A DNA stretch of 17,571 nt. It comes from Sulfuricurvum sp. GTDB lineage: Bacteria; Campylobacterota; Campylobacteria; Campylobacterales; Sulfurimonadaceae. This document shows, piece after piece, positions 150-12,872 of this stretch. Made by a program: the position numbers and the translations under genes. The stretch covers positions 1 through 17,571 of the forward strand of contig JAGXHZ010000052.1 of NCBI GenBank assembly GCA_024635855.1. The letters are read 5' to 3'. Each line of letters starts with the position of its first letter. Position 1 is the stretch's first letter. The notes under the pieces are model-generated. The model made no database searches. It was not told where the DNA came from and saw only the letters and a list, made by a program, of their open reading frames with translations.

Positions 150-1050
150 TTACATAGTCCTTCACAGTAGTTATTAACGCCTCATCCAACGTAATGGAAA
201 GTTCCAAAATAGAAAGATTGAGTTTTTTATAGGTCGACATTTTAACCAAGTCTTTTGAAGTTACCAAGAGACTCGTCGCACCGGTACGCTCAACAATCAT
301 TTCCAATTCCCCTTGGGTAAAGAAATGGTGATCTTCGAAATAGATTTTTTCACTCACTTCCGGCAGATAAGGATCAAGTCTCTCAGGACGTGCGATTGCG
401 GTTACCAATACCATCTTTTCCGTTGGATTTTTAATACTCACGGAACGTTGAAAAGCCACTTTTTCCATCAACACGATAGCCTCTTTGCTACTCCACAAAC
501 GCTCTCTATACGGTCCTGAGGGAAGGCAAAAAGGGTTCGTGGTCGGGACGGCAATTACAAGATCAAGCTTCTCAATAGAGTGTTTGCCGTACCCATCATC
601 AAGCAATACGACTTCGCACCCCATCGATGCAGCTTCTGCGATTCCCCGTTCTCTGATTTCACTGACAATCACCGTAGCATTTTCCAAATACTCGGCATAA
701 AGCATCGCTTCATCACCGCTTCGAATCACGTCGCACAGTATTGTTGATTTATATTTGACAACAACCATTCCACGGCTTTGTCGTCCGTATCCGCGCAATA
801 CTATAGCCGGCTTCTCAAAGTGTTTTGCCAATTCAATGACGACGGGGGTTTTTCCACTACCGCCGAGGGTAAGGTTACCGATGCTCACGACAGGAATCCC
901 TAAAGATTTAGGGACACTGCGGCGATAGCGTACGTATGCCCCCAAACAGTAGATCCAGCTTAGCGGTAAAAGTAATAGGGAGAGGATTTTTTGGCTCAGT
1001 GAGGGGTTGTAAAAATACCGTTCACCCCACAGTACCCAAAAACGTTTCAA
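133..1050 (-). CDS. lpxK: Tetraacyldisaccharide 4'-kinase (lipid A synthesis)
   Basis: LpxK phosphorylates the 4' position of the tetraacyldisaccharide-1-phosphate lipid A precursor at the inner membrane. At 305 aa it has normal length. It shows a hydrophobic membrane-associated helix at about residues 20-40, the family P-loop GNLTLGGSGKTP at 58-69, RGYGR at 86-90, SGDEAML at 111-117 and the LLDDGYGKHS segment at 149-158, which corresponds to the usual DDGFQHH motif. The Gln-His-His part is replaced by Gly-Lys-His, a variation I see in the sequence but cannot rate. The start codon is TTG (1050-1048), overlapping the TGA stop of the upstream gene as TTGA, so translation is probably coupled. 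The 3' end overlaps argB. It belongs to the operon nadE > DegT-family > lpxK > argB. Confidence 0.93.
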   Translation of the reverse strand: MKRFWVLWGERYFYNPSLSQKILSLLLLPLSWIYCLGAYVRYRRSVPKSLGIPVVSIGNLTLGGSGKTPVVIELAKHFEKPAIVLRGYGRQSRGMVVVKYKSTILCDVIRSGDEAMLYAEYLENATVIVSEIRERGIAEAASMGCEVVLLDDGYGKHSIEKLDLVIAVPTTNPFCLPSGPYRERLWSSKEAIVLMEKVAFQRSVSIKNPTEKMVLVTAIARPERLDPYLPEVSEKIYFEDHHFFTQGELEMIVERTGATSLLVTSKDLVKMSTYKKLNLSILELSITLDEALITTVKDYVNAAKN

Positions 1051-2165
1051 ACGCGTGTTGAAGCTACATCCAAAATTGCGTCACAAATCTCTTCGACTTC
1101 ATCGTCGCTGAGTGCGGCATAATTCGGAATAGAAAGTACTTGTTGATAGTTACGAAGAGCCACTGGAAAATCATTAACCCGTAAGGAGTATTTTGATTTA
1201 TAATAACTCAATAAATGAAGCGGAATGTAGTGAAGACCACACTCGATTCCCCGTAGAGAAAGTTCCCGCGCAAATGAGTCACGATTTTTATCGACCTTGA
1301 TAATATACAACGAATAAGCATGTTCTTCATTGGCGATAGGAAGTCTGATATGCGGTGCATCGATAAGACGTTCATTGAATATTTCAGCGATTTGACGTTG
1401 CCGCTCAATATTTTCATCTTGTTTCTCAAGCTGAATGATAATCGTTGCCGCATCGAGAGGACTCATCATGTATTGACTTCCGATATCGGTAACATCATAG
1501 ATGTATCCTAGCCCCTCATCCTCTACTACCATGGCATGATTGCGAAGTGAGCGTGCACGTTCCATGATATCTTCATCGTCACACACCATCATTCCGCCGT
1601 TACAAACATTACGGCGTAGATGAGGGCTAAAATCAAAACAGGTGATATCGGCACCGGTAGAGCCGATTTTTTGTCCTTTGTAGATTGCACCCAAAGCATC
1701 CGAAGCATCTTCTACGATTTTAACATCGTATTGTTTTGCCATCGCATACAATCGATCCAATTCGACACTTTGACCTGCGATATGAGAGACAATGACCGCT
1801 TTGAGTTTTTTGGATTTGTTTTCAGCCAAGTAAGCTTCGAGTTTATCCAAATCGATGGTAAACGTATCGGGATTGATATCGATAAAGATCGGCTCTGCAT
1901 CGAAATGACGTACCACTTCGGGAACGGAGGGGTACGCATTAATAGAACAGAGCACTTTATCGCCTCGCTTGAGATCAATCGCCAACATTGCCAAATGAAG
2001 TGCTGCCGTGCCGTGTGAAGTAGCCAAAGCGTACGTTGCTCCGATATACGATTCAAATGCCGCTTCTAAGTCTTCGACGATATTCGGAGCTTCTCCGTCG
2101 AGCACTTCATCAATTTTTTCTCGTTCATCTCCGCCGACTTCGACACGATAGAATGGGATACTCAT
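1047..2165 (-). CDS. DegT/DnrJ/EryC1/StrS-family protein lacking the PLP lysine
   Basis: This 372-aa protein has the full length and order of sugar aminotransferases of the DegT/ArnB/PseC family: SHGTAALH at 50-57 (cofactor phosphate loop), VEDASDALGA at 151-160 (the Asp that pairs with the pyridine nitrogen), and SLRNHAM at 206-212. In the family the PLP lysine sits in a motif like FSFHPVKNITTGEGG. Here residues 177-191 read FDFSPHLRRNVCNGG, with Leu183/Arg184 at the lysine position and no lysine nearby. I reread the bases and the residues are correct. Normal transamination through an internal aldimine is therefore unlikely. It could be a dehydratase-like, binding-only or structural member. 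An AAGGA lies seven bases before the ATG. It lies 14 bp after nadE and overlaps lpxK, so a link to surface-sugar or lipid A work is possible but inferred. Confidence 0.85.
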   Translation of the reverse strand: MSIPFYRVEVGGDEREKIDEVLDGEAPNIVEDLEAAFESYIGATYALATSHGTAALHLAMLAIDLKRGDKVLCSINAYPSVPEVVRHFDAEPIFIDINPDTFTIDLDKLEAYLAENKSKKLKAVIVSHIAGQSVELDRLYAMAKQYDVKIVEDASDALGAIYKGQKIGSTGADITCFDFSPHLRRNVCNGGMMVCDDEDIMERARSLRNHAMVVEDEGLGYIYDVTDIGSQYMMSPLDAATIIIQLEKQDENIERQRQIAEIFNERLIDAPHIRLPIANEEHAYSLYIIKVDKNRDSFARELSLRGIECGLHYIPLHLLSYYKSKYSLRVNDFPVALRNYQQVLSIPNYAALSDDEVEEICDAILDVASTRV

Positions 2166-2179
2166 TTTCTGTTCCTTTT

Positions 2180-2980
2180 TTATAGGGTAATATCTCTAGG
2201 ATAATTAAAATCATGATTAAGTGTTCGTGATGTCAATTTTGCGATTACAGGCATACGCCGTTTAAATTGATTTTGATAAATTCTCTTTACTATCATATCA
2301 ACTAATTGGGAGTTTTCTCCATCGGCTATCATATCTTCAACGGTATGCCGTTCTTCAACGTAACGCTTTAACACACGATCTAAATCTACATACGGAAAAC
2401 CTATTTCCGTTTCATCACTCTGCCCTGCCCATAAATCAGCAGAGGGAGGTTTATCAATAATCGGGCTTGGAACCCCTAAATAACGGGCCAATTCAAATAC
2501 TTCGGTTTTATACAAATCACCGATAGGGTTGAGCGCACTCGCTAAATCTCCGTACAATGTTCCGTATCCGAGCATCAGTTCGCTTTTATTACTGGTTCCT
2601 AGAACCAAAGCCCCCTCACGCGCCGAAATATCGAACAGCGTTACCATTCGTAACCGTGCTGAAAGGTTCCCTATCCGAAGCGGTGTCATATCGGTAGACT
2701 CATAAGCACGAAGCATCGGTTCAATGCTTTTCGTCTCGGATCGGAGTCCGAATACTTCGCATAATTCATCTGCATCATCCAATGAGTTTTGAGATGAATA
2801 GTGTGAAGGCATTTTAATACAGAGTAAGTCATCACCGAATGCACGATGCGCCAATACAGCCACAACGGCTGAATCAATACCGCCGCTCAAGCCTAAAAGC
2901 ACTTTTTTCAGACCTGTTTTACGAACTTCTTGATCCAAAAATTCGCTCAAGTACCGGCTGACAAGTTCGTATTTACCCAC
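2180..2980 (-). CDS. nadE: NH3-dependent NAD+ synthetase
   Basis: NadE converts deamido-NAD and ammonia to NAD with ATP, via an adenylate intermediate, in the cytosol. The 266-aa length matches the short ammonia-dependent form, with no N-terminal glutaminase (nitrilase) domain. Visible motifs: LSGGIDSAVV at 31-40 (PP-loop for ATP pyrophosphate), NLSARLRM at 105-112, GTSNKSELMLGYGTLYGD at 128-145, and KPPSADLWAGQSDE at 177-190, the active-site loop. The start is GTG at 2980-2978, with AAGG about eight bases upstream. It is the first gene of the minus-strand operon; a TATAAT box lies 33 bases before the start. In Campylobacter jejuni nadE and lpxK are, as I recall, also neighbours, so the pairing is conserved. 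Confidence 0.95.
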   Translation of the reverse strand: MGKYELVSRYLSEFLDQEVRKTGLKKVLLGLSGGIDSAVVAVLAHRAFGDDLLCIKMPSHYSSQNSLDDADELCEVFGLRSETKSIEPMLRAYESTDMTPLRIGNLSARLRMVTLFDISAREGALVLGTSNKSELMLGYGTLYGDLASALNPIGDLYKTEVFELARYLGVPSPIIDKPPSADLWAGQSDETEIGFPYVDLDRVLKRYVEERHTVEDMIADGENSQLVDMIVKRIYQNQFKRRMPVIAKLTSRTLNHDFNYPRDITL

Positions 2981-3012
2981 TATTTAACCTTACTTTAGTA
3001 TTAACTATTTGC

Positions 3013-3018
3013 ATTATA
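3013..3018 (-). promoter_or_regulatory. Predicted -10 box of the nadE operon
   Basis: The minus strand reads TTAGTTATAATGC, with a perfect TATAAT at 3018-3013. Transcription would start near 3006, leaving a leader of about 25 nt that includes the AAGG before the GTG start. There is no clear -35 box, only AT-rich sequence, which is normal for the vegetative sigma factor of Campylobacterota. The preceding gene ends at 3041, so the box lies in the only real gap (2981-3040) upstream of nadE. Confidence 0.55.
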
Positions 3019-3040
3019 ACTAATTTTAGTAACGAAGTTA

Positions 3041-3862
3041 TTAACACTTTGAGGGAGAAATACGTTCCAATTCATCTTTATGAAATCCGGCTTGCTCTCT
3101 CGCTGTACAGTTAATATCAATTCTTCGGGGAAAACTGTTGGGGTAGTGTTTTTCAATGATTTCAAAATAGCTTGAAATCCCCTTATTCTCTTGTGAACAA
3201 GCGTATTCAAACCACACATCCCCTTTACGGACATGATCGATCTCTTCCTCTAAAATAATATGAAGTGCCCCCATGATTTTTTGTATCATGGAATCCGATG
3301 CATGAGGCTGTAATTTACGTAATATAAGGGGGGTCGCATCCAAGCCGTTGGCTTCAAGGTATCTCGGCACTACTGCCATCCGCTCATGCAAATCCAGTGT
3401 CCGCATAGAGGCTTCAAACAAAGCGTCATGTACCGGATACTCCCCGTAAAAACTCCCTAACTCATGGAGCAATACCTCTATCATCTCAAAATGGCGTACT
3501 TCATCATCGGCTACTTCTAACCAATCACGTTCAAAATTTTCACCTAATCCGCGAAAACGATACACGGCATCGAGGGCAAGATCGATTGCGCTGTATTCAA
3601 TATGAGCGATTGCATGAAGAAGCAATATCTGACCTTGCGGGGTATTGAGTTTTGTACGTCTTGGCACCTTTTTCGGATCAATCACCGTACAAAAATCACG
3701 ATAGGAGGGGTGGCTAAAAGCGATAGGCTTAATTTCGTCATCTCGTGTAATCTCGCCGCGACGATAGGCATCGTAAAACTCTCGAAAGAGGGCTATTTTC
3801 TCACTTGGAGCAGCAGTGGTTAAAAGAGTTTTCAAAATGCTATTGAGTTCCATAAAAGCCAT
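3041..3862 (-). CDS. DUF455 ferritin-like protein
   Basis: At 273 aa this matches the DUF455 family, a ferritin-like four-helix fold. Candidate metal ligands are spaced as in such proteins: Glu89 in HIEYSAIDLA, Glu121 and His124 in DDEVRHFEM, His159-Glu160, and Glu205-Glu207 with His210 in EEEIDHV. A di-metal (probably iron) site is likely, but no reaction is established for the family to my knowledge; some relatives resemble the tRNA hydroxylase MiaE. The start is uncertain. The ATG at 3862 overlaps a TATAAT box at 3866-3861 and has no Shine-Dalgarno; the next in-frame ATG at 3853, giving MELNSILK and 270 aa, would sit at the predicted transcript start. It is divergent from the GIY-YIG gene, 20 bp away. 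Confidence 0.85.
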   Translation of the reverse strand: MAFMELNSILKTLLTTAAPSEKIALFREFYDAYRRGEITRDDEIKPIAFSHPSYRDFCTVIDPKKVPRRTKLNTPQGQILLLHAIAHIEYSAIDLALDAVYRFRGLGENFERDWLEVADDEVRHFEMIEVLLHELGSFYGEYPVHDALFEASMRTLDLHERMAVVPRYLEANGLDATPLILRKLQPHASDSMIQKIMGALHIILEEEIDHVRKGDVWFEYACSQENKGISSYFEIIEKHYPNSFPRRIDINCTAREQAGFHKDELERISPSKC

Positions 3863-3866
3863 TATA
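3861..3866 (-). promoter_or_regulatory. Predicted -10 box before the DUF455 gene
   Basis: TATAAT on the minus strand at 3866-3861 runs into the upstream candidate start codon (TATAATGG). If used, transcription starts near 3855, just before the second in-frame ATG at 3853. That would give a leaderless or nearly leaderless mRNA and would exclude the first ATG. Confidence 0.4.
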
Positions 3867-3869
3867 TCG

Positions 3870-3875
3870 TATACT
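3870..3875 (+). promoter_or_regulatory. Predicted -10 box before the GIY-YIG gene
   Basis: TATACT at 3870-3875 stands seven bases before the ATG at 3883, and the region upstream of that ATG has no Shine-Dalgarno. The predicted transcript start falls on or next to the start codon. This box and the divergent one at 3861-3866 share a 20-bp intergenic gap. Confidence 0.35.
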
Positions 3876-3882
3876 CTCAGTT

Positions 3883-4146
3883 ATGAAATCATCCGAAAAA
3901 GCCTACACTCTTTATATTCTAAAATGCAGTGACGATACCTATTACACAGGGATAGCAATCGATGTTGAAAAACGGTTGATGGAGCATAATACGTCGGACA
4001 AAGGGGCAAAATATACCCGTTCGCGTCGTCCCGTAGAATTGATCTACCGTGAAGAATACAGCGATAAAAGCACTGCACTCAAACGGGAACTCGCGATCAA
4101 ACGGATGAAACGCTCCAACAAAGAGGCTTTATGGACTTGTGGATAA
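3883..4146 (+). CDS. YhbQ/UPF0213-type GIY-YIG nuclease-superfamily protein
   Basis: An 87-aa protein that is essentially a single GIY-YIG domain. YTLYILKCSDDTYYTGIA at residues 8-25 supplies the two tyrosine-containing strands. R31 in DVEKRLMEHN is the expected catalytic arginine, and a Glu follows in the LKRELAIK helix. The length and the GAKYTRSRRPVELIYREE segment match the small YhbQ class. Members are thought to act on DNA in repair or related processes, but a cellular role is not firmly established. It has no ribosome binding site and may be leaderless (-10 box at 3870). Its end overlaps the next gene by 16 bp, so the two are translated from one message. Confidence 0.9.
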   Translation: MKSSEKAYTLYILKCSDDTYYTGIAIDVEKRLMEHNTSDKGAKYTRSRRPVELIYREEYSDKSTALKRELAIKRMKRSNKEALWTCG

Positions 4147-4895
4147 AAATAACCCTTATCCTTCTTCTGGCGATACTTATTTATCGTGAAATTCTCAAAT
4201 CAGCACTTTATCACCACCAACGCCCGAGTCAAAAATCGAAGGCAAATTTTCTAAGCCTGCTCCTTGTGGGAGGAGTGGTAGGAATCTTTACCTATGCAGG
4301 GATTTCAATAACCTGGATTGAAACACGGGATTTACGCCCCTATATCCCGAAACATTCCCCTCAAATGGTCAGCATCTTTGATCGTGGAGTTATTGAACTG
4401 GAAGGGATGGTGATTAAAACGAATTTAGCACGTGAGGGAGAACTCTCGAAACTCGCTAATACGCTTACCGAAGGTTGCAACAACGATCAAGGATGCGAAG
4501 TTCAAAAAATGTTCGACTATGTCACTAATATCCCCTATAAAACTGACTATACTAGCCGTAATGCCAAAAAAGTGGTAGAGAGCAACTGGGGGGATTGTGA
4601 CGATAAATCGAATCTCTTTGCTTCCTTACTGAATGAAAAAGGGTATGAGTATCGCTTTGTCTACGTACCTCATCATGTTTTTGTCGTTGTCCATCTCAGT
4701 GATACCGACGACCTCCCTTTTCTAAGTGCCAGTCTTAAAATAGAAGGGAAAAACTTCTACTACGCCGAAACCACTTCAGAAGGGGCTAAAATCGGTGAAT
4801 TTAACGGTCAATTCCCTTATAATTTCGAGGGTATTTACGATATGAAGAGAAATCGTCCCGAAGAACTCTCAAACGTCAAATTTTCGATTGGATAG
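4131..4895 (+). CDS. Membrane-anchored transglutaminase-like protein
   Basis: A 254-aa protein with two N-terminal hydrophobic segments (about 5-19 and 40-61), followed by a soluble domain that probably lies in the periplasm. The domain carries the transglutaminase/papain-like core: NWGDCDDKSNLFASLL at 152-167 with nucleophile Cys156, VPHHVFVVVHLSD at 179-191 with His181/His182, and an acidic residue in YYAETTSEGA at 210-219 (Glu213) where the third catalytic residue is expected. Two more cysteines at 116 and 122 bracket a short loop and could form a disulfide. The substrate is unknown; relatives act as proteases, peptidases or transamidases. The start lies inside the end of the GIY-YIG gene. 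The 3' end converges on the large STAND gene with a 38-bp gap. Confidence 0.8.
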   Translation: MDLWIKITLILLLAILIYREILKSALYHHQRPSQKSKANFLSLLLVGGVVGIFTYAGISITWIETRDLRPYIPKHSPQMVSIFDRGVIELEGMVIKTNLAREGELSKLANTLTEGCNNDQGCEVQKMFDYVTNIPYKTDYTSRNAKKVVESNWGDCDDKSNLFASLLNEKGYEYRFVYVPHHVFVVVHLSDTDDLPFLSASLKIEGKNFYYAETTSEGAKIGEFNGQFPYNFEGIYDMKRNRPEELSNVKFSIG

Positions 4896-4928
4896 AACAT
4901 AATAATAAATTTATCAATCCTATCCCAA
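4888..4928. terminator. Weak inverted repeat between convergent genes, possible terminator
   Basis: TTGGATAG at 4888-4895 can pair with CTATCCCAA at 4920-4928, giving eight pairs with one bulged C around a 24-nt AT-rich loop. It spans the stop of the transglutaminase-like gene and the gap before the STAND gene's stop. The loop is long and there is no T-run, so terminator function is a weak inference. Confidence 0.2.
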
Positions 4929-4933
4929 GTCTC

Positions 4934-7900
4934 TCAATCAATTGCCGCTTTAGTAGTGTCTCTTAATGTGTCGCTCATTAAAAACTTATCCATTAAATCC
5001 AATAGAGCTATTTTCTTTTCATCAGATTTTGTTCTAGTATTAAGCTCTAAAATAAACTCGATCAACGGTCTTGAATCATAATAACCCATCTCTTTATTGG
5101 CATCAATATTGTCTATTACTATCTCTAAAAGTTCAAAGATTTTTTCAGAAATAGCTGTATCTAAATGATACTCATTTTTCAAATAATTTATAAAACTATT
5201 CGTTTCTCTTCTTATGTGAATGGATTGAGCCAAACTTTTCACAAAATCAAAGTCATTTTGAATAAAATTTAATCCATTCATCTTGATGAGATCAAATGTA
5301 TAGAAATAATCATTGTTGTCACTATTTTTAAACTTTAATATAAATTGTTTGGATTTTTCAACTTTTTTTCTATCTTTTGAATGTAACTCTTGTGCAAAAA
5401 TTTGATGTAAAACCCCATGAATTATGTGAGAATTTGAATCGATTGCATCATTTAGTAGTTCTTCAAATATTTCATCATTTTCATGTAAATAATAATAAAA
5501 CAAATACATACCTAAGTTTTGTATATAGTGAGAATCTTCTCGATCCTTGACTTGTTTTACAAAAGAAAGCGCTTTTTTAGTGAAGTCAATTAACTCTTCT
5601 TTTGTAATGAAACTATTGCCGTATAAATAATGAAGATTTTGTAATGAATAAATTGAAACTTGTCCTATTTCATCTTTTTTTATAAGGTCAACTAAAAGCT
5701 TTGCAAATACAATTTTATCGACAGACTCGATGCTACCTAAAGTTCTCAATAATCCAAAAATGACGAAACTCTCACTATCAAGAATTATATTATTTACAAG
5801 GCTTAAAACTCTTTTTTTGCCACTCTCATCATGAAATACGTTCGTATAGACCAAGGGAAGTAATTCTGCAAATTCACCCTCAAAAGAATTTATTGCACTT
5901 GACATATGATCATGTATCGTTTGAAATTTCTCTTGATCTCTAACTAAACCTTCATATCGAATATTTTGATTGGCTTCTAAAATATATATGAAACTTTCAT
6001 CAAATTTATTCTGATGTATTAAATGTTTCATTGCTTTTAAAATCGTCCGTTTTAACCAACTATTATCTATATCTGAATATAGATGAATAATTTTTAAAAC
6101 TCTCTCTTCATCATAGTTAGATGCAATTAATCCACTTAATCCAGCCGACAAATAATCCGCATGGATGTTTTCTGATTTTAACTGTAGCAATAAATCATAA
6201 AAGTTATCTGGTTTTTCAGTAACTTCTTTTTCAAATTGCCTATGATGTTCAGTTTTACCGCCTCTAAAAAAACTATTCATACTTTTTCTTGAGTTGGTGC
6301 CATCAAAAATTTTCATCGATTGTAGCCAATGTTCTAAACTCATTTTTTTATAAACTTCTTGCTTTAATGGTGCTCCAGCAACACTAACATTTGATTTATG
6401 AGGCTTATTCAGCTTATACCAATGGAATTTTCTTTTCAATTCTTGAAATTCTTTGAAATAACCAAACTTTTTTATATCTATAATATTGAGCAAACATAAA
6501 AATTCATATCTTTGTAATCCAATATAGGTGCCTTGATATACAGATTTCATATCCCATTTGCCTAAAAAAGTAGTTTTCTGCCATTTAGGATTTATCTGAA
6601 GAATCGTATTGAATATTTTTTCTTGTTCTGATACATCGTATAAATGAAATGATTTAGCTAATAACATTGCCAACTCATAACCAGTATCTTGATCAAAAGA
6701 CATCGCTTCCAAAAGCCTTGGATTTGTCAATAATGTCAATGTTTCATTTTTATACTCATACGGATTTTTAGAATAACCAAATATAAAAAATGTAATTAGT
6801 GAAAGATACCGAGAATCTTGATAAGGTTGGATGAGTTCTAAAAAAACATCTTTATCATCTATAGCCAATTGAGAGATTTGATGAAGAGTGGATCTATATA
6901 ATCCCCATGTACTATGAGGTAACTCCTCAAATTGCCACATCAAATAATCAAACACATGATCAGTAATTAAAAACTCTTTTTTAGAATATTCATTTTTAAT
7001 TTTTTCACTAATTTTTTGTATTGATTCCAAGAGCTTCTGAAAAATATATTGTTTGTTAGTTGCTACTAAAAATTCAAATATCCTATACCAATGATAATCT
7101 AAAAGATCATTTTTATTACTATCGTCAGCTTCTTTTATGAGAGTATCTAAAAAGTCAAAAAACAAATGTATCGCATATTCTTGATTGAATAAATATACTT
7201 TTTTATAAATCTTTTCTATATCAAATCTCACATTCTCTTTACGCATGATATGATGATACTTTTCAAAAATTGCAAAACTATAATCGTTCCAACGATCAAG
7301 TCTTTCTAGAGACAACATTATGGCTTCATCTTTGAATTCAGATTCACATTCATCAAATATTTCTAAAACTAAGTACGGTTCTTTATTTACAAAAGTATCT
7401 AATCGATAATGCAAATTATATTTTTTAAAATTCTCATCATTAAAAAAACCATCTTTTTTAAAATAAATCAGCCAATCAGCGGATATCCAACTTTCTATAA
7501 AATACTTTTCAAAGTTTTTATCATCAGTAAAGAGTTTTTTTACAAAAGCGAATTCTTCGATGGTCGGATTTTCAAGACTTCCAAGATATGACATCAATAA
7601 AAGTTTTATATGAAATCTAACTTTATCTGAGTGCAAGATATTTTCAAGTTCTAAGAGATACATACTCTCATCTGTACCCCTTAAAAATTGAATAATTTGT
7701 TTGAATTGTTCTCTTATACTCAAATCTTGATATGTCGTTAAAATGTACTCAAATAAAGATACGCCTTTTATTGCAAAATCTCTAGCGAATACATAATCAT
7801 AAAAAGTTTGATGAAAAAATGTGATTTTATTATTCTCTTGTTTCAAAATTCCATTACTACATAAAAGACTCATTTCTTCTTTAAATTCGTCTTCAAAATA

Positions 7901-9220
7901 TAAAGCAGGAACTTCAATTTTTTTTATTTCATTCATTTTTTGAACGACTAAGTTTAATAACTTAATACTATTTTGTCTCGTAATTCTATCAATTGACTCA
8001 CTATTGACTTTTTGCTCCCAAAATTTGTTATATAAATCTTGCAGTGTTTTAATGGATATACAGCTATTGTCATTAGGATATAAGTCTATAAAAATCGAAA
8101 GATGTAAAGGTGTCCGTAATAACTCAATTAAGATATTATTTAATGTTACAGATTCTTTTACAAATGACTTCAATTTGTTATTGACATACTCAAAGCTCAA
8201 TAACTGCGTTCTTATAACATTAGAGTCATCTAAATGTTTGAATAACGGATCATTTTTTAAATCATATTCCCTAATAGAAACAATTACCTTTACATTTGAG
8301 ATGTATTTTAATTGTTCTATAAATCCCAAGATAATATTTATTACTTTTTGATTTGATGACATTGTTAAAGATAAAGCATCCAGTTGATCTATCAACACAA
8401 TGACTTTTTCTTTTCTTGATAACTGTTTTATAGAGTGCAAAAGATCTTCAACTCCAAAAAATTTAGAAAAAGAATCTCGACTTTCTATATCGATTTTATC
8501 ACTTTTAATGCCCAAATAAGCCATCTTACTCTCTATAAGATCACTTTGTATCTTACTTAATATTGCAGTTTTACCGATACCAGCTTTTCCAGTCAGAACC
8601 AATAAATCATCTTTATAATTCTCACTATTTATAAACTCAAAAATCTCATCAAATTCGGGCATATCAATAAAACTTTTTTCAATATATAAATTTGATGAGG
8701 AAAGTAGAAACACTGAATTTTCGTGAAACTTTTGTTTGATGTCATTTTCACTCAATACACTTTTATAAAACGCCCAAGGATAGTAATATTTTGCTACTGT
8801 TGGATATTTTTCGAGTAATCCTTCAATCTCTTCCCAACTCCACACAATAACAGTAAAGCCATATTGAGATGTTAATTCTGTTGCTCTATCTTGTAGAACA
8901 GTATCTTGTTTAAAAGAGTTCGCAAAAATAAATGTATCGATATTCGTAAATTTAGCACTAGCCGATTTAACTTCATCTTCTATGTCTTTTAAAAGCTCAG
9001 CTTGAATTTTTATATCATTTCTAGCTATTAGTTTATTTTTACATTGATAAACAATTTGTTTTTCATTCTTTGAAAAAGAAAGCCCATCTATTCCACTTTG
9101 ATTTTGACCTTTTCTTCCATAAACTTGAAATTCAAATCCATATTTTTCTTCACATAAATCATTGACTAACGATTCAAACTCTTTTTCATCTTTTAAAGGT
9201 GGAAATTGATAACTACTCAT
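4934..9220 (-). CDS. Mrr-like nuclease-STAND NTPase with long helical C-terminus, probable Avs-type anti-phage protein
   Basis: A single 1428-aa gene with three parts. Residues 1-150 form an Mrr-type PD-(D/E)xK nuclease: FESLVNDLCEEKYGF, then SGIDG (Asp45) and YQCKNK (Gln59, Lys61). Residues 170-380 form a STAND/NACHT NTPase: P-loop TGKAGIGKTA at 210-219, Walker B VIVLIDQLDAL at 273-283, VSIREYD with Arg317 as a sensor candidate, and RTPLHL at 369-374, the conserved proline site. About 1000 residues of helical character follow, without a motif I can name, as expected for a repeat-built sensor. In Avs proteins the C-terminus binds a phage protein and assembly activates the N-terminal effector; Mrr-type nucleases occur in Avs4. 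The gene is far more AT-rich than its neighbours and has no partner gene. Assignment to a specific Avs type is inference. The start has poor Shine-Dalgarno support. Confidence 0.82.
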   Translation of the reverse strand: MSSYQFPPLKDEKEFESLVNDLCEEKYGFEFQVYGRKGQNQSGIDGLSFSKNEKQIVYQCKNKLIARNDIKIQAELLKDIEDEVKSASAKFTNIDTFIFANSFKQDTVLQDRATELTSQYGFTVIVWSWEEIEGLLEKYPTVAKYYYPWAFYKSVLSENDIKQKFHENSVFLLSSSNLYIEKSFIDMPEFDEIFEFINSENYKDDLLVLTGKAGIGKTAILSKIQSDLIESKMAYLGIKSDKIDIESRDSFSKFFGVEDLLHSIKQLSRKEKVIVLIDQLDALSLTMSSNQKVINIILGFIEQLKYISNVKVIVSIREYDLKNDPLFKHLDDSNVIRTQLLSFEYVNNKLKSFVKESVTLNNILIELLRTPLHLSIFIDLYPNDNSCISIKTLQDLYNKFWEQKVNSESIDRITRQNSIKLLNLVVQKMNEIKKIEVPALYFEDEFKEEMSLLCSNGILKQENNKITFFHQTFYDYVFARDFAIKGVSLFEYILTTYQDLSIREQFKQIIQFLRGTDESMYLLELENILHSDKVRFHIKLLLMSYLGSLENPTIEEFAFVKKLFTDDKNFEKYFIESWISADWLIYFKKDGFFNDENFKKYNLHYRLDTFVNKEPYLVLEIFDECESEFKDEAIMLSLERLDRWNDYSFAIFEKYHHIMRKENVRFDIEKIYKKVYLFNQEYAIHLFFDFLDTLIKEADDSNKNDLLDYHWYRIFEFLVATNKQYIFQKLLESIQKISEKIKNEYSKKEFLITDHVFDYLMWQFEELPHSTWGLYRSTLHQISQLAIDDKDVFLELIQPYQDSRYLSLITFFIFGYSKNPYEYKNETLTLLTNPRLLEAMSFDQDTGYELAMLLAKSFHLYDVSEQEKIFNTILQINPKWQKTTFLGKWDMKSVYQGTYIGLQRYEFLCLLNIIDIKKFGYFKEFQELKRKFHWYKLNKPHKSNVSVAGAPLKQEVYKKMSLEHWLQSMKIFDGTNSRKSMNSFFRGGKTEHHRQFEKEVTEKPDNFYDLLLQLKSENIHADYLSAGLSGLIASNYDEERVLKIIHLYSDIDNSWLKRTILKAMKHLIHQNKFDESFIYILEANQNIRYEGLVRDQEKFQTIHDHMSSAINSFEGEFAELLPLVYTNVFHDESGKKRVLSLVNNIILDSESFVIFGLLRTLGSIESVDKIVFAKLLVDLIKKDEIGQVSIYSLQNLHYLYGNSFITKEELIDFTKKALSFVKQVKDREDSHYIQNLGMYLFYYYLHENDEIFEELLNDAIDSNSHIIHGVLHQIFAQELHSKDRKKVEKSKQFILKFKNSDNNDYFYTFDLIKMNGLNFIQNDFDFVKSLAQSIHIRRETNSFINYLKNEYHLDTAISEKIFELLEIVIDNIDANKEMGYYDSRPLIEFILELNTRTKSDEKKIALLDLMDKFLMSDTLRDTTKAAID

Positions 9221-9230
9221 ACAGTGGTCA

Positions 9231-9255
9231 CTATCTTAATCTCATCCATACTCAA
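9231..9255 (-). repeat. Leader segment A, similar to segment B at 12759-12787
   Basis: On the plus strand CTATC is followed by TTAATCTCATCCATACTCAA. It matches 18 of 20 bases of the leader of the membrane-protein gene (TTAATCTCATCCTCACTCAA); CTATC also recurs there, with four extra bases between. It lies 11 bases upstream of the STAND start codon, in the transcribed leader. Confidence 0.5.
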
Positions 9256-9332
9256 CCTATTTTCTGGAAATGAATTTAAAAGAGACCTTTGGAAGAATGA
9301 CAAAATTTATGCCTCATTGTTAATGTAAGACC

Positions 9333-11354: not shown

Positions 11355-11379
11355 TGTGACTCCTCACATTTGTCCTGAA

Positions 11380-11385
11380 ATTTTA
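11380..11385 (-). promoter_or_regulatory. Predicted -10 box of the cmoB operon
   Basis: The minus strand reads GCTAAAATTTCAGG, with TAAAAT at 11385-11380. A start near 11373 leaves a leader of about 19 nt that contains the GAGGAG ribosome binding site. Confidence 0.4.
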
Positions 11386-11444
11386 GCGTGATTACCCTAA
11401 AGAGGATGTGAATTACACAATGACGGAAGATATAGTGTCGATTC

Positions 11445-11473
11445 TTGACATGACACATGTTGTGTGTTAAAAT
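11445..11473 (+). promoter_or_regulatory. Promoter with palindromic operator of the toxin-antitoxin operon
   Basis: A consensus TTGACA (11445-11450) and TAAAAT (11468-11473) are separated by exactly 17 bases. The spacer holds an inverted repeat, ACACA-TGT-TGTGT, at 11453-11465. A ribbon-helix-helix antitoxin dimer bound there would cover the promoter, the normal arrangement for autoregulation of such operons. It is the only promoter in the window with a near-perfect -35 box. The antitoxin start follows at 11505 with AAGGG upstream. Confidence 0.65.
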
Positions 11474-11504
11474 AGTCTAAAGTTTACTACATAAAGGGTT
11501 CGTC

Positions 11505-11771
11505 ATGACAACAACAGCTCATAAAATCAGAACCAACGTCTATTTGGATGCAGTGATCAAAGATAAAGCGCAAGAAGTATTCAAACAATACGGGATGGGG
11601 CTAAGTGACGCATTCAATATCTTTTTAGCTCAAACAGTATTAGAAAGAGGTATACCTTTTCAAATTAAGATTCCTAATGAAGAGACGAAACAAGCAATCA
11701 ATGATGCACGCTTAGGAATCAATATGACAAAAATTTCTTTTGAGGATCTAAAAAAGGAGATCGATGCGTGA
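11505..11771 (+). CDS. dinJ: RelB/DinJ-family antitoxin
   Basis: An 88-aa antitoxin. Residues 8-14 (IRTNVYL) form the DNA-binding strand and residues 16-29 and 32-46 the two helices of a ribbon-helix-helix domain, ending in LERGIPFQIKIPN, which is typical of DinJ. The rest, about 55-88, is the toxin-binding tail. DinJ-type antitoxins neutralise the mRNA interferase YafQ and, with it, repress their own promoter; a fitting palindrome lies at 11453-11465. AAGGG precedes the ATG. The gene overlaps the toxin gene by eight bases (ATGCGTGA), the usual toxin-antitoxin coupling. Confidence 0.9.
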   Translation: MTTTAHKIRTNVYLDAVIKDKAQEVFKQYGMGLSDAFNIFLAQTVLERGIPFQIKIPNEETKQAINDARLGINMTKISFEDLKKEIDA

Positions 11772-12030
11772 TATTGCAATTCACAAATCGTTTGTCAAAG
11801 AGCTCAAAAACGCCCAACTCAATCCGACTAATACTGCCAAACTTTTTATGTTTATATCGCTTTTACTAAATGGTGAAGATTTACCGCTAGAAGCAAGAGA
11901 CCATCCGCTTATAGGTAACTGGGCAGATACGAATGAATTTCATATCAGCGGGGATTTATTGGTCATTTATAGAATCAATGCTGATACTCTGGAACTGCTT
12001 AGAATCGGTACACACTCACAACTTTTTTAA
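11764..12030 (+). CDS. yafQ: YafQ-family mRNA interferase toxin
   Basis: An 88-aa RelE/ParE-superfamily toxin. The YafQ core is clear: ARDHPLIGNWADTNEFHI at 44-61, SGDLLVIYRI at 62-71 and LLRIGTHSQLF at 78-88. With a shift of three residues it keeps the E. coli YafQ catalytic set as I recall it: His47 (His50), His60 (His63), Asp64 (Asp67), His84 (His87) and Phe88 (Phe91); Trp68 is replaced by Leu65. YafQ cuts mRNA at the ribosome in the A site, slowing growth. AAGGAG six bases before the ATG lies inside the antitoxin gene. All key histidines are present, so the toxin is probably active. The pair sits between cmoB and an accessory patch, consistent with horizontal gain. Confidence 0.9.
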   Translation: MRDIAIHKSFVKELKNAQLNPTNTAKLFMFISLLLNGEDLPLEARDHPLIGNWADTNEFHISGDLLVIYRINADTLELLRIGTHSQLF

Positions 12031-12045
12031 ATTTAAATATATTCT

Positions 12046-12139
12046 TCCTCCATCTGCATTCCCACTTAAAAATGTGGAAACGAAGGATCGATTCGGGTCA
12101 AAAAGATATTAAGTGAGACCAGCTAAGTTTGATGGAGGA
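12046..12139. repeat. Degenerate extragenic palindrome with flanking 9-bp inverted repeat
   Basis: TCCTCCATC at 12046-12054 is exactly complementary to GATGGAGGA at 12131-12139. Inside is a smaller hairpin, TTCCCAC (12059-12065) with GTGGAAA (12074-12080), six of seven pairs. The look, TTCCCAC...GTGGAA followed by an ACGAAGGA tract, resembles the ATTCCCGC/GCGGGAAT extragenic repeats common in bacterial intergenic space, here decayed. The right arm lies in the short remnant ORF. The 189-bp gap 12031-12219 holds this element and the remnant and nothing else I can support. Confidence 0.4.
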
Positions 12140-12188
12140 GCGTTTTGATCTCTTCATAAAAGTGGTTTGATTTGTCGATGTTACTCAT
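12123..12188 (-). pseudogene. 21-codon gene remnant with its own ribosome binding site
   Basis: On the minus strand ATG at 12188-12186 opens a 21-aa frame, MSNIDKSNHFYEEIKTLLHQ plus one Thr, ending at TAG (12125-12123). AGGGG lies eight bases upstream, and the preceding gene on the same strand ends 31 bases away, as expected for the second gene of an operon. The peptide looks like the start of a longer protein. NHFYEEIKTLLHQT resembles the first helix of YhcG/DUF1016-type PDDEXK nuclease proteins (xxEIKxLIxxAR), but that is recall only. The sequence after the TAG has no coding continuation and merges into the repeat at 12046-12139, so the body was probably deleted. It could instead be a genuine small protein. 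Confidence 0.4.
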
Positions 12189-12219
12189 TTATTATCCCCT
12201 AGTCAATCCTTTGCTCATG

Positions 12220-12750
12220 TTAATTTAACCTATATTTTTTTTCATATTTTTCAAATAACTGAGACACTTTTTCTTCTAAAACGTTCTTGAAGTATTTATT
12301 TATTTCTACTTCTAGTTCTCGTTCCAAAGTAGTTCTAAGAACAATTTTTAGTTTAGGTTTGAATAAACTGTCAAAAGGTGTTTGCTCTTTCACACACTGT
12401 TCTATTGCTGAATCCAAAAAACGAAAAATATCTTGTGAAAATTTTGTTTTCTCTTGATAGCCTACATCCTGAAGTGCGATTTCCCAAAATTGTCCAAAAG
12501 AGCTCCATCGTTTAATCCAAATGCCAATAAAATCAATTCTTTTTAATGATTGTTCAGAAAGATTAATCACTTCAAAATTTAAAAAATATTCCGTTGGTTT
12601 TTGATTTACTGGAGATGGTGTACCAATAGCTTTAATCTTAAAATGGCGTTTGTAATAAAATTCATAAATAGCCCATCCGAAAGCTAATATAGTTGCAATA
12701 TCTGAAGCTATTCCTATTAAGTCTTTTAACTCATACCCCATAAAATTCAT
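12220..12750 (-). CDS. Hypothetical single-span membrane protein
   Basis: I do not recognise this 176-aa protein. One hydrophobic helix lies at about residues 8-28 (IGIASDIATILAFGWAIYEF), followed by a basic YYKRHFKIK, which suggests a cytoplasmic C-terminal domain. That domain has beta-rich sequence (YFLNFEVINLSE, KPKLKIVLRTTL) and ends in a charged helix of about 30 residues. I chose the ATG at 12750 because AGGAG lies five bases upstream; a longer frame from GTG at 12783 would place that site inside the gene and lacks its own. The gene is AT-rich compared with its neighbours and is followed by a truncated remnant on the same strand, so it is probably a leftover of an accessory operon. Function unknown. 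Confidence 0.7.
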   Translation of the reverse strand: MNFMGYELKDLIGIASDIATILAFGWAIYEFYYKRHFKIKAIGTPSPVNQKPTEYFLNFEVINLSEQSLKRIDFIGIWIKRWSSFGQFWEIALQDVGYQEKTKFSQDIFRFLDSAIEQCVKEQTPFDSLFKPKLKIVLRTTLERELEVEINKYFKNVLEEKVSQLFEKYEKKYRLN

Positions 12751-12758
12751 TACTTCTC

Positions 12759-12787
12759 CTATCCTCATTAATCTCATCCTCACTCAA
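12759..12787 (-). repeat. Leader segment B, similar to segment A at 9231-9255
   Basis: CTATC, four extra bases, then TTAATCTCATCCTCACTCAA on the plus strand. It matches 18 of 20 bases of the STAND leader. It lies directly upstream of the ribosome binding site of the membrane-protein gene. Confidence 0.5.
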
Positions 12788-12813
12788 GTCATACAGTACA
12801 TACATCATCATAT

Positions 12814-12819
12814 ATTATA
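12814..12819 (-). promoter_or_regulatory. Predicted -10 box of the hypothetical membrane-protein gene
   Basis: The minus strand reads GGTTTGCTATAATATATG, with TATAAT at 12819-12814. The core TTTGCTATAAT is identical to that before the STAND gene. A start near 12807 leaves a leader of about 57 nt that includes segment B and AGGAG. Confidence 0.5.
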
Positions 12820-12860
12820 GCAAACCATATCCCTAGCAACAATTTTTAGCGATTTTAAGC

Positions 12861-12866
12861 TAAAAT
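12861..12866 (+). promoter_or_regulatory. Predicted -10 box of the CDF exporter gene
   Basis: TAAAAT at 12861-12866 ends six bases before the ATG at 12873, and the stretch between is only CCCCC-like sequence without a ribosome binding site. The predicted transcript start falls at or next to the A of the start codon. Confidence 0.35.
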
Positions 12867-12872
12867 ACCCCC

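Follow-up and report, generated by a model that had tools for sequence, protein, structure and literature searches.

The window analysed here, a stretch of 17,571 nt from Sulfuricurvum sp. (contig JAGXHZ010000052.1), contains at 4934..9220 on the minus strand a gene for a protein of 1428 amino acids (aa) that probably functions as a single-gene Avs-like anti-phage receptor: a C-terminal solenoid would sense infection, a STAND NTPase would oligomerise and an N-terminal Mrr nuclease would cut DNA. The gene had been singled out in an original prediction, whose interpretation proved largely right and was in part supported. Judged by sequence comparison, the protein is built like Avs4 and its effector and switch share a distant ancestor with those of Avs4, whereas its putative sensor belongs to a different family.

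Domain architecture of the receptor gene

The open reading frame (ORF) starts with ATG and contains no internal stop codons. Its extent, its 1428 codons and the residues named in the original prediction were all recovered at their positions. The assignment as a gene is backed by 82 homologues and by the ratio of nonsynonymous to synonymous substitutions (dN/dS), which over the whole gene was 0.14-0.23 in comparison with four homologues and thus indicates purifying selection. The encoded protein consists of an Mrr nuclease, a STAND switch and a helical C-terminus, and its active-site residues are conserved. The Avs-like tripartite logic proposed earlier was borne out, and the nuclease and switch residues are conserved among the homologues.

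Residues 1-150 (8771..9220, like all parts on the minus strand) were assigned to an Mrr-type PD-(D/E)XK nuclease on the basis of Pfam, a predicted model and conservation. The Pfam model Mrr_cat matched this region with an E-value of 0.0011 and 19.5 bits, just below the cut-off of 21, and the residues D45 and Q59-x-K61 correspond to the D and Q/E-x-K of a putative PD-(D/E)XK core. In the predicted model, D45 lies just before a strand formed by residues 46-48, and Q59 and K61 lie within a strand formed by residues 55-61. All three residues are conserved in 52 of 54 rows of close homologues, the other two being gapped at this place. Among the rows of intermediate similarity the nuclease domain is present in 7 of 11, where the three residues are kept except for one Q-to-H exchange; of the eight distant rows, six retain D and Q and five retain K, two being gapped.

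Residues 151-480 (7781..8770) form a NACHT-like STAND NTPase with a winged helix. This part has a P-loop (TGKAGIGKTA, 210-219), a Walker B motif (VIVLIDQLDAL, 273-283), a sensor arginine (R317), an R-x-P motif with P371 (RTPLHL, 369-374) and a winged-helix histidine within FHQTFYDY (469-476). G211, G216, K217, D278, R317, P371 and H470 were invariant in 29 of 29 rows of alignment A1. The remaining residues 481-1428 (4937..7780) are predicted to form an alpha-solenoid and represent the putative sensor, an assignment resting on an AlphaFold2 model, a profile match to a Sinorhizobium protein and motif rows. As had been predicted, the gene stands without a companion: between 4896 and 9394 just one further ORF of at least 80 aa occurs, antisense and inside the gene.

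The putative sensor and its relatives in other phyla

The C-terminus comprises about 950 helical residues, and the AlphaFold2 model of residues 470-1428 had a mean pLDDT of 87.5 and a pTM of 0.62. Within the predicted solenoid, a conserved block extends from about 905 to 1045 and includes the motif RGGxxxHxxxFxxxVxxxP at 986-1004. A Pfam scan revealed no domain above cut-off C-terminal to the NTPase, and in Pfam and NCBIfam no non-defence family matched the C-terminus. A relationship with a non-defence family, which would have spoken against a role in defence, was thus not found; the fold matches of the model were to generic HEAT/ARM solenoids.

Similar C-termini occur in STAND proteins of Bacteroidota, Alphaproteobacteria and Chloroflexota. 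With the C-terminus of a Sinorhizobium plasmid protein, which was not part of the profile, hhalign gave a probability of 98.5% and an E-value of 2.8e-15 from residue 715 to about 1420. BLASTP detected residues 905-1043 in the Sinorhizobium protein (E 8e-12), residues 797-1032 in a Segatella protein (E 4e-8) and, as a single stretch, residues 168-1115 in a Herpetosiphon protein (E 3e-63). The C-terminus had been described as unrecognised; this held with respect to Pfam domains and to homology with the Avs4 sensor, but it is not unique, being common to STAND proteins of these three other groups. By homology it represents a putative sensor family which spans phyla and is distinct from that of Avs4.

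Comparison with Avs proteins and other STAND nucleases

Avs4 carries an Mrr-type nuclease, as does the window protein. Residues 14-539 were collinear with Avs4 (hhalign 97.2%, E 4.5e-11), both proteins combine a STAND NTPase with a long helical C-terminus in one polypeptide, and the modelled solenoid resembled that of Avs4 in overall shape (query TM 0.40-0.41). In contrast, with the same profile that detected the Sinorhizobium C-terminus, comparison with the Avs4 C-terminus alone gave an hhalign probability of only 0.2% (E 0.33). A true Avs4 (L099:1486-6177) served as positive control; it is encoded in genome G137, which also contains a homologue of the window gene (L020) elsewhere. This Avs4 scored 1942 bits with the NCBIfam and 1945 bits with the PADLOC Avs4 model, neither of which matched the window protein, and no NCBIfam Avs model matched the L020 homologue. 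Identity with Avs4 was rejected, as the Avs4 models miss the window protein and C-terminal profile homology is absent.

The NCBIfam models of Avs2, Avs3a and Avs5 (NF041813, NF041816 and NF041814) did not match the window protein at E ≤ 1 and E ≤ 0.1, in a comparison with no above-cut-off positive control. Membership in an Avs type, as suggested originally, was consequently not confirmed by the curated models of Avs2, Avs3a, Avs4 and Avs5. No Avs1 model was among the PADLOC and NCBIfam matches, the libraries not having been checked for containing one. In the accessible text of PMC12799240, Avs1 is described with a partner nuclease and a protease; unlike this, the conserved unit of the window gene includes no adjoining gene.

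The PADLOC model PDLC04702 of the candidate PDC-M54A matched residues 205-480 (E 1e-12) and all 29 rows of alignment A1, the match covering positions 318-607 of the 1621 positions of the model, i.e., the NTPase part only. The closest solved relative by sequence was an 'AAA family ATPase' of 1523 aa (PDB 9n00, 9n01 and 9yix), which was matched with an E-value of 4.7e-18 by the window protein alone and of 3.2e-45 by the family profile, with the best stretch at 50-597. C-terminal similarity did not go beyond one weak match (8.6 bits, i-Evalue 2.5). The clade 6 bacterial NACHT proteins bNACHT25 and bNACHT32 are described, in the accessible text of PMC12169576, as having an N-terminal PD-(D/E)XK nuclease and a NACHT module together with an NCH1 domain. 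Compared by description only, the window protein is like them in nuclease and NACHT but differs in its C-terminus, which is without any Pfam domain. Parts of the wider group are thus already on record as PDC-M54A and 9n00, and this kind of STAND nuclease is known from several examples. Of the novelty that was originally placed in the C-terminus, the difference from the Avs4 sensor was supported; the NTPase part is matched by PDC-M54A, and a relative has already been solved.

Distribution of homologues and mobility of the gene

Scoring of the 7991 top candidates drawn from about 5.8 billion proteins yielded at least 82 other proteins that matched at E ≤ 1e-3. Sixty close homologues (P0002-P0061) shared 61-86% identity with the query, in 54 cases over 90% or more of its length, and their named hosts were Sulfuricurvum, Sulfurovum, Sulfurovaceae, Arcobacter, Halarcobacter and Aliarcobacter. 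A middle group showed 37-47% identity and a distant group of nine proteins 24-35% over part of the length, the named hosts of the latter being Flavobacterium and Chitinophaga. Within the nearest genus the gene was present in 1 of 41 genomes, 118 kb from, and on the same contig as, that genome's counterpart of the metallo-beta-lactamase-fold protein (MBL) gene which flanks the window gene. At least 7 of 397 genomes drawn from the class matched, three by full-length close homologues, and so did at least 7 of 104 genomes of one family, four of them by full-length and close homologues; one of these four (G137) was also in the class draw. As the search scores some but not all of its first-look candidates, the counts from genome draws are lower bounds. 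Eight loci are treated below as full-length and close: the window, L001, L002, L003, L020, L021, L022 and L065.

The gene is a mobile accessory gene. Its G+C content is 27.5% compared to 42% in the rest of the window, confirming the contrast in composition noted before. In three of six other loci measured (L002, L021 and L022), the homologue does not stand out, with 23-26% G+C in surroundings of 26-28%, which fits an AT-rich donor. DNA homology with the six loci starts at the ATG (at codon 8 in L003), ends near the stop codon and does not extend beyond, so the unit shared by the loci is the ORF itself. Homologues occupy unrelated sites in relatives; a single conserved syntenic place, which would have contradicted the original prediction, was not observed. 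In L002 the gene's neighbours encode a tyrosine integrase and a coupling protein of the TraG/TrwB type, in L001 they are conjugation-like genes (named by eye), and a leftover of the N-terminus in G408 suggests gene loss.

Comparison of the flanks by blastn with relatives lacking the gene delimited an inserted segment at 4895..9313 (no strand assigned), the right edge being 9313 in comparison with L059 and about 9360 with L060 and L061. The flanking genes encode a transglutaminase-like protein and the MBL (named by eye). At the empty site they are 60 bp apart in L060 and 50 bp in L061, and likewise 50-60 bp apart in L070, L073, L082 and L088, L073 and L088 belonging to genomes already represented by L060 and L061. 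L059, which has the most similar transglutaminase-like gene found (86%), contains at this slot a 1.1-kb insert of 28% G+C with a DUF2971 gene (L059:8871-9845) that corresponds to the PADLOC candidate PDC-S31 (E 6.3e-42), indicating that the slot accepts different AT-rich cargo. We surveyed the slot in the genus at 30 loci among the matches listed (30 of 37). The two flanking genes were adjacent in four and separated by an insert of 0.9-1.1 kb in two; a DUF455 gene was located directly beside the MBL gene in 15 and about 0.5 kb away in one; neither gene was within reach in six, one of which had a transglutaminase-like stretch of 33% identity; and the contig ended in two.

Probable exchange between sensor and effector parts

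When the window gene was compared with L065, the proportion of synonymous differences was 0.155 for codons 151-480 and 0.534 for codons 1051-1428. The best change point was at codon 1082, where the proportion rose from 0.24 to 0.57 with a log-likelihood gain of 34.1, compared to a maximum of 9.7 in 500 shuffles. Trees of 54 proteins calculated for residues 1-480, 481-1050 and 1051-1428 mutually rejected each other (log-likelihood difference, deltaL, 797-1586) in the Kishino-Hasegawa (KH), Shimodaira-Hasegawa (SH) and approximately unbiased (AU) tests, the latter with 2000 replicates, which is below the number advised by the program. As a control within segments, the halves of the N-terminal segment gave a deltaL of 97, rejected by KH but not by SH, and those of the C-terminal segment a deltaL of 176, rejected by both, which speaks against a simple reading. 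Either the segments may be mosaic themselves or the test over-rejects. Across segments, deltaL was 730-732 for the N-terminal (7.5-fold the control) and 356-504 for the C-terminal segment (two- to threefold the control).

Individual proteins changed neighbours between trees. By its N-terminus the window protein was nearest to P0003 (tree distance 0.08) and P0005 (0.11), by its C-terminus to P0002 (0.11), P0003 and P0005 then being 0.42-0.43 away; compared to P0005, its first 480 residues were four times closer in tree distance than its last 378. P0012 has an N-terminus near the set of the window protein, closest to P0007, P0009 and P0006, and a C-terminus in another set, which includes P0037 and P0038 of Aliarcobacter and P0024 of Sulfurovum. 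These sequence comparisons are most simply read as an exchange of sensor and effector parts through recombination. The pairwise identities of six segments correlated with coefficients of 0.64-0.83, indicating that the exchange is partial and that breakpoints need not coincide with domain borders.

Effectors and neighbouring genes of the relatives

The same receptor family bears different effectors. P0077 has an LmuA-type nuclease as N-terminus on the same receptor (E 5.9e-23), and the N-terminal effector is absent in P0065, P0066, P0067, P0069 and L016 and likewise in P0079 and P0080. In L016, a small ORF is located immediately upstream of the effector-less receptor. In the G213 homologue (L023:12497-16500) the nuclease is replaced at the N-terminus by a segment judged hydrophobic by eye; this homologue is interrupted by stop codons and is likely a broken copy. 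In G180 the Mrr module is joined to TPR repeats (50% identity over 159 residues). The module is also part of a 730-aa NTPase/TPR-like protein of G146 (by eye), which shares 29% identity with residues 3-481 of the window protein; it lies in a defence island (L024:1330-18001) amid matches to DndH, Orf5, PbeC/DndD, DndC and GajA. C-terminal relatives in other phyla, such as that on the Sinorhizobium plasmid, also bear different effectors.

Some relatives appear as split forms. The upstream ORF of L016 (152-502, 116 aa) ends with ..VEKGIGYIHTNTGNINF, and the head of the receptor (504-4421), ..VDKGIGKIDNMFGDIHF, looks similar by eye. Further split forms were seen in P0065, P0066, P0067 and P0069 and at L066:7761-12915, and in Segatella the tail of a TIR-like protein resembles, again by eye, the head of the NACHT protein. 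The layout of the split pairs looks like that of the amyloid signalling (BASS) pairs, as far as these are described in the accessible text of PMC7889193.

For the neighbouring genes we scanned 10 chosen proteins, nine from the window, L001, L002, L003, L020 and L065, one from the L059 slot and none from L021 and L022. These matched candidate models only: PDC-S05 twice, PDC-S31 once and, weakly, PDC-M34B. The PDC-S05 candidate gene (L003:14623-15129, E 4.6e-51; L020:8881-9798, E 6.2e-120) adjoins the homologue in two of the eight loci. Among the relatives on plasmids of other groups, that of Segatella is flanked by a DUF2971 gene and by a gene matching TIR weakly (22.2 bits, cut-off 28), with a Gabija pair at a distance of 2.5 kb; that of Sinorhizobium has a recombinase and a multiubiquitin/ThiF gene group in its vicinity, and that of Herpetosiphon a DUF262 gene, a helicase and an integrase. 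The window itself holds a second acquired, AT-rich segment (11355-12872) with a RelB/YafQ toxin-antitoxin pair (11505-12030) and a gene for a 187-aa protein (12220-12783). The genes for CmoB and a cation diffusion facilitator (both identified by eye) border this segment; in L059, L060 and L061 they adjoin each other.

Proposed function

In the resting state of the receptor, the C-terminal solenoid would keep an ADP-bound NACHT switch closed. An infection product, most probably a conserved protein of the phage, would be recognised by the solenoid, leading to nucleotide exchange in the NTPase and to oligomerisation. The oligomer would bring the N-terminal Mrr domains together, and the ensuing DNA cleavage would halt infection at the expense of the cell. 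In this scheme autoinhibition, oligomerisation, DNA cleavage, phage trigger and abortive outcome are carried over from Avs and bNACHT proteins. That infection, once sensed, would lead to cleavage of DNA is the natural reading in view of what is described, in the accessible text, for Avs (PMC12931631, PMC12799240) and bNACHT25 (PMC12169576). Two points weigh against this function: no curated Avs model matched the window protein, and next to the eight full-length close loci we recognised no defence system of an established type, the scan having covered nine chosen proteins from six of these loci.

Sensing might also be indirect, with the solenoid watching a host factor, e.g., a chaperone, that is disturbed by infection. 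According to the accessible text of PMC12169576, bNACHT25 and bNACHT32 require DnaJ and the activating coat protein was not found to bind directly, and the conservation of the block at about 905-1045 across phyla might be more in line with binding to a conserved host protein than with diverse phage targets. However, Avs1-4 are described in the accessible part of PMC12931631 as directly recognising the phage terminase, the portal or proteins of unknown function, and the sensor part of the family is more variable, and mosaic. We regard indirect sensing as rather unlikely. A role as a weapon of conjugative elements, aimed mainly at plasmids or competing mobile elements instead of phages, is improbable. 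The neighbours in L001 and L002 would fit such a role, but such elements commonly carry defence genes of any kind, and the window, L003, L020, L021, L022 and L065, six of the eight loci of full length, have the receptor as a single gene amid chromosomal genes that look by eye like housekeeping genes. A host STAND protein for regulation or signalling outside defence is very improbable in view of the conserved nuclease residues, the sporadic presence, the AT-rich insertion, the differing effectors and the defence-type neighbours of relatives.

Extending the reading as an Avs-like anti-phage receptor, the family may constitute a separate Avs-like type present in at least four phyla, with a C-terminal receptor that is homologous across phyla, carries the RGGxxxHxxxFxxxVxxxP block and has a trigger new to Avs; the type would evolve by recombination of the sensor against effector and NTPase, and its sister forms would reach a separate effector via short matching tags in place of a fused nuclease; this wider proposal is somewhat more likely to fail than to hold.

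The main value of the protein lies in its putative sensor. The gene offers a clean single-gene test case for the question of what bacterial NLR-like receptors beyond Avs1-5 recognise. Conservation of the C-terminal family across phyla is sufficient for its trigger to be sought by screening, and natural mosaics such as the window protein and P0005 represent ready-made pairs for the mapping of specificity.

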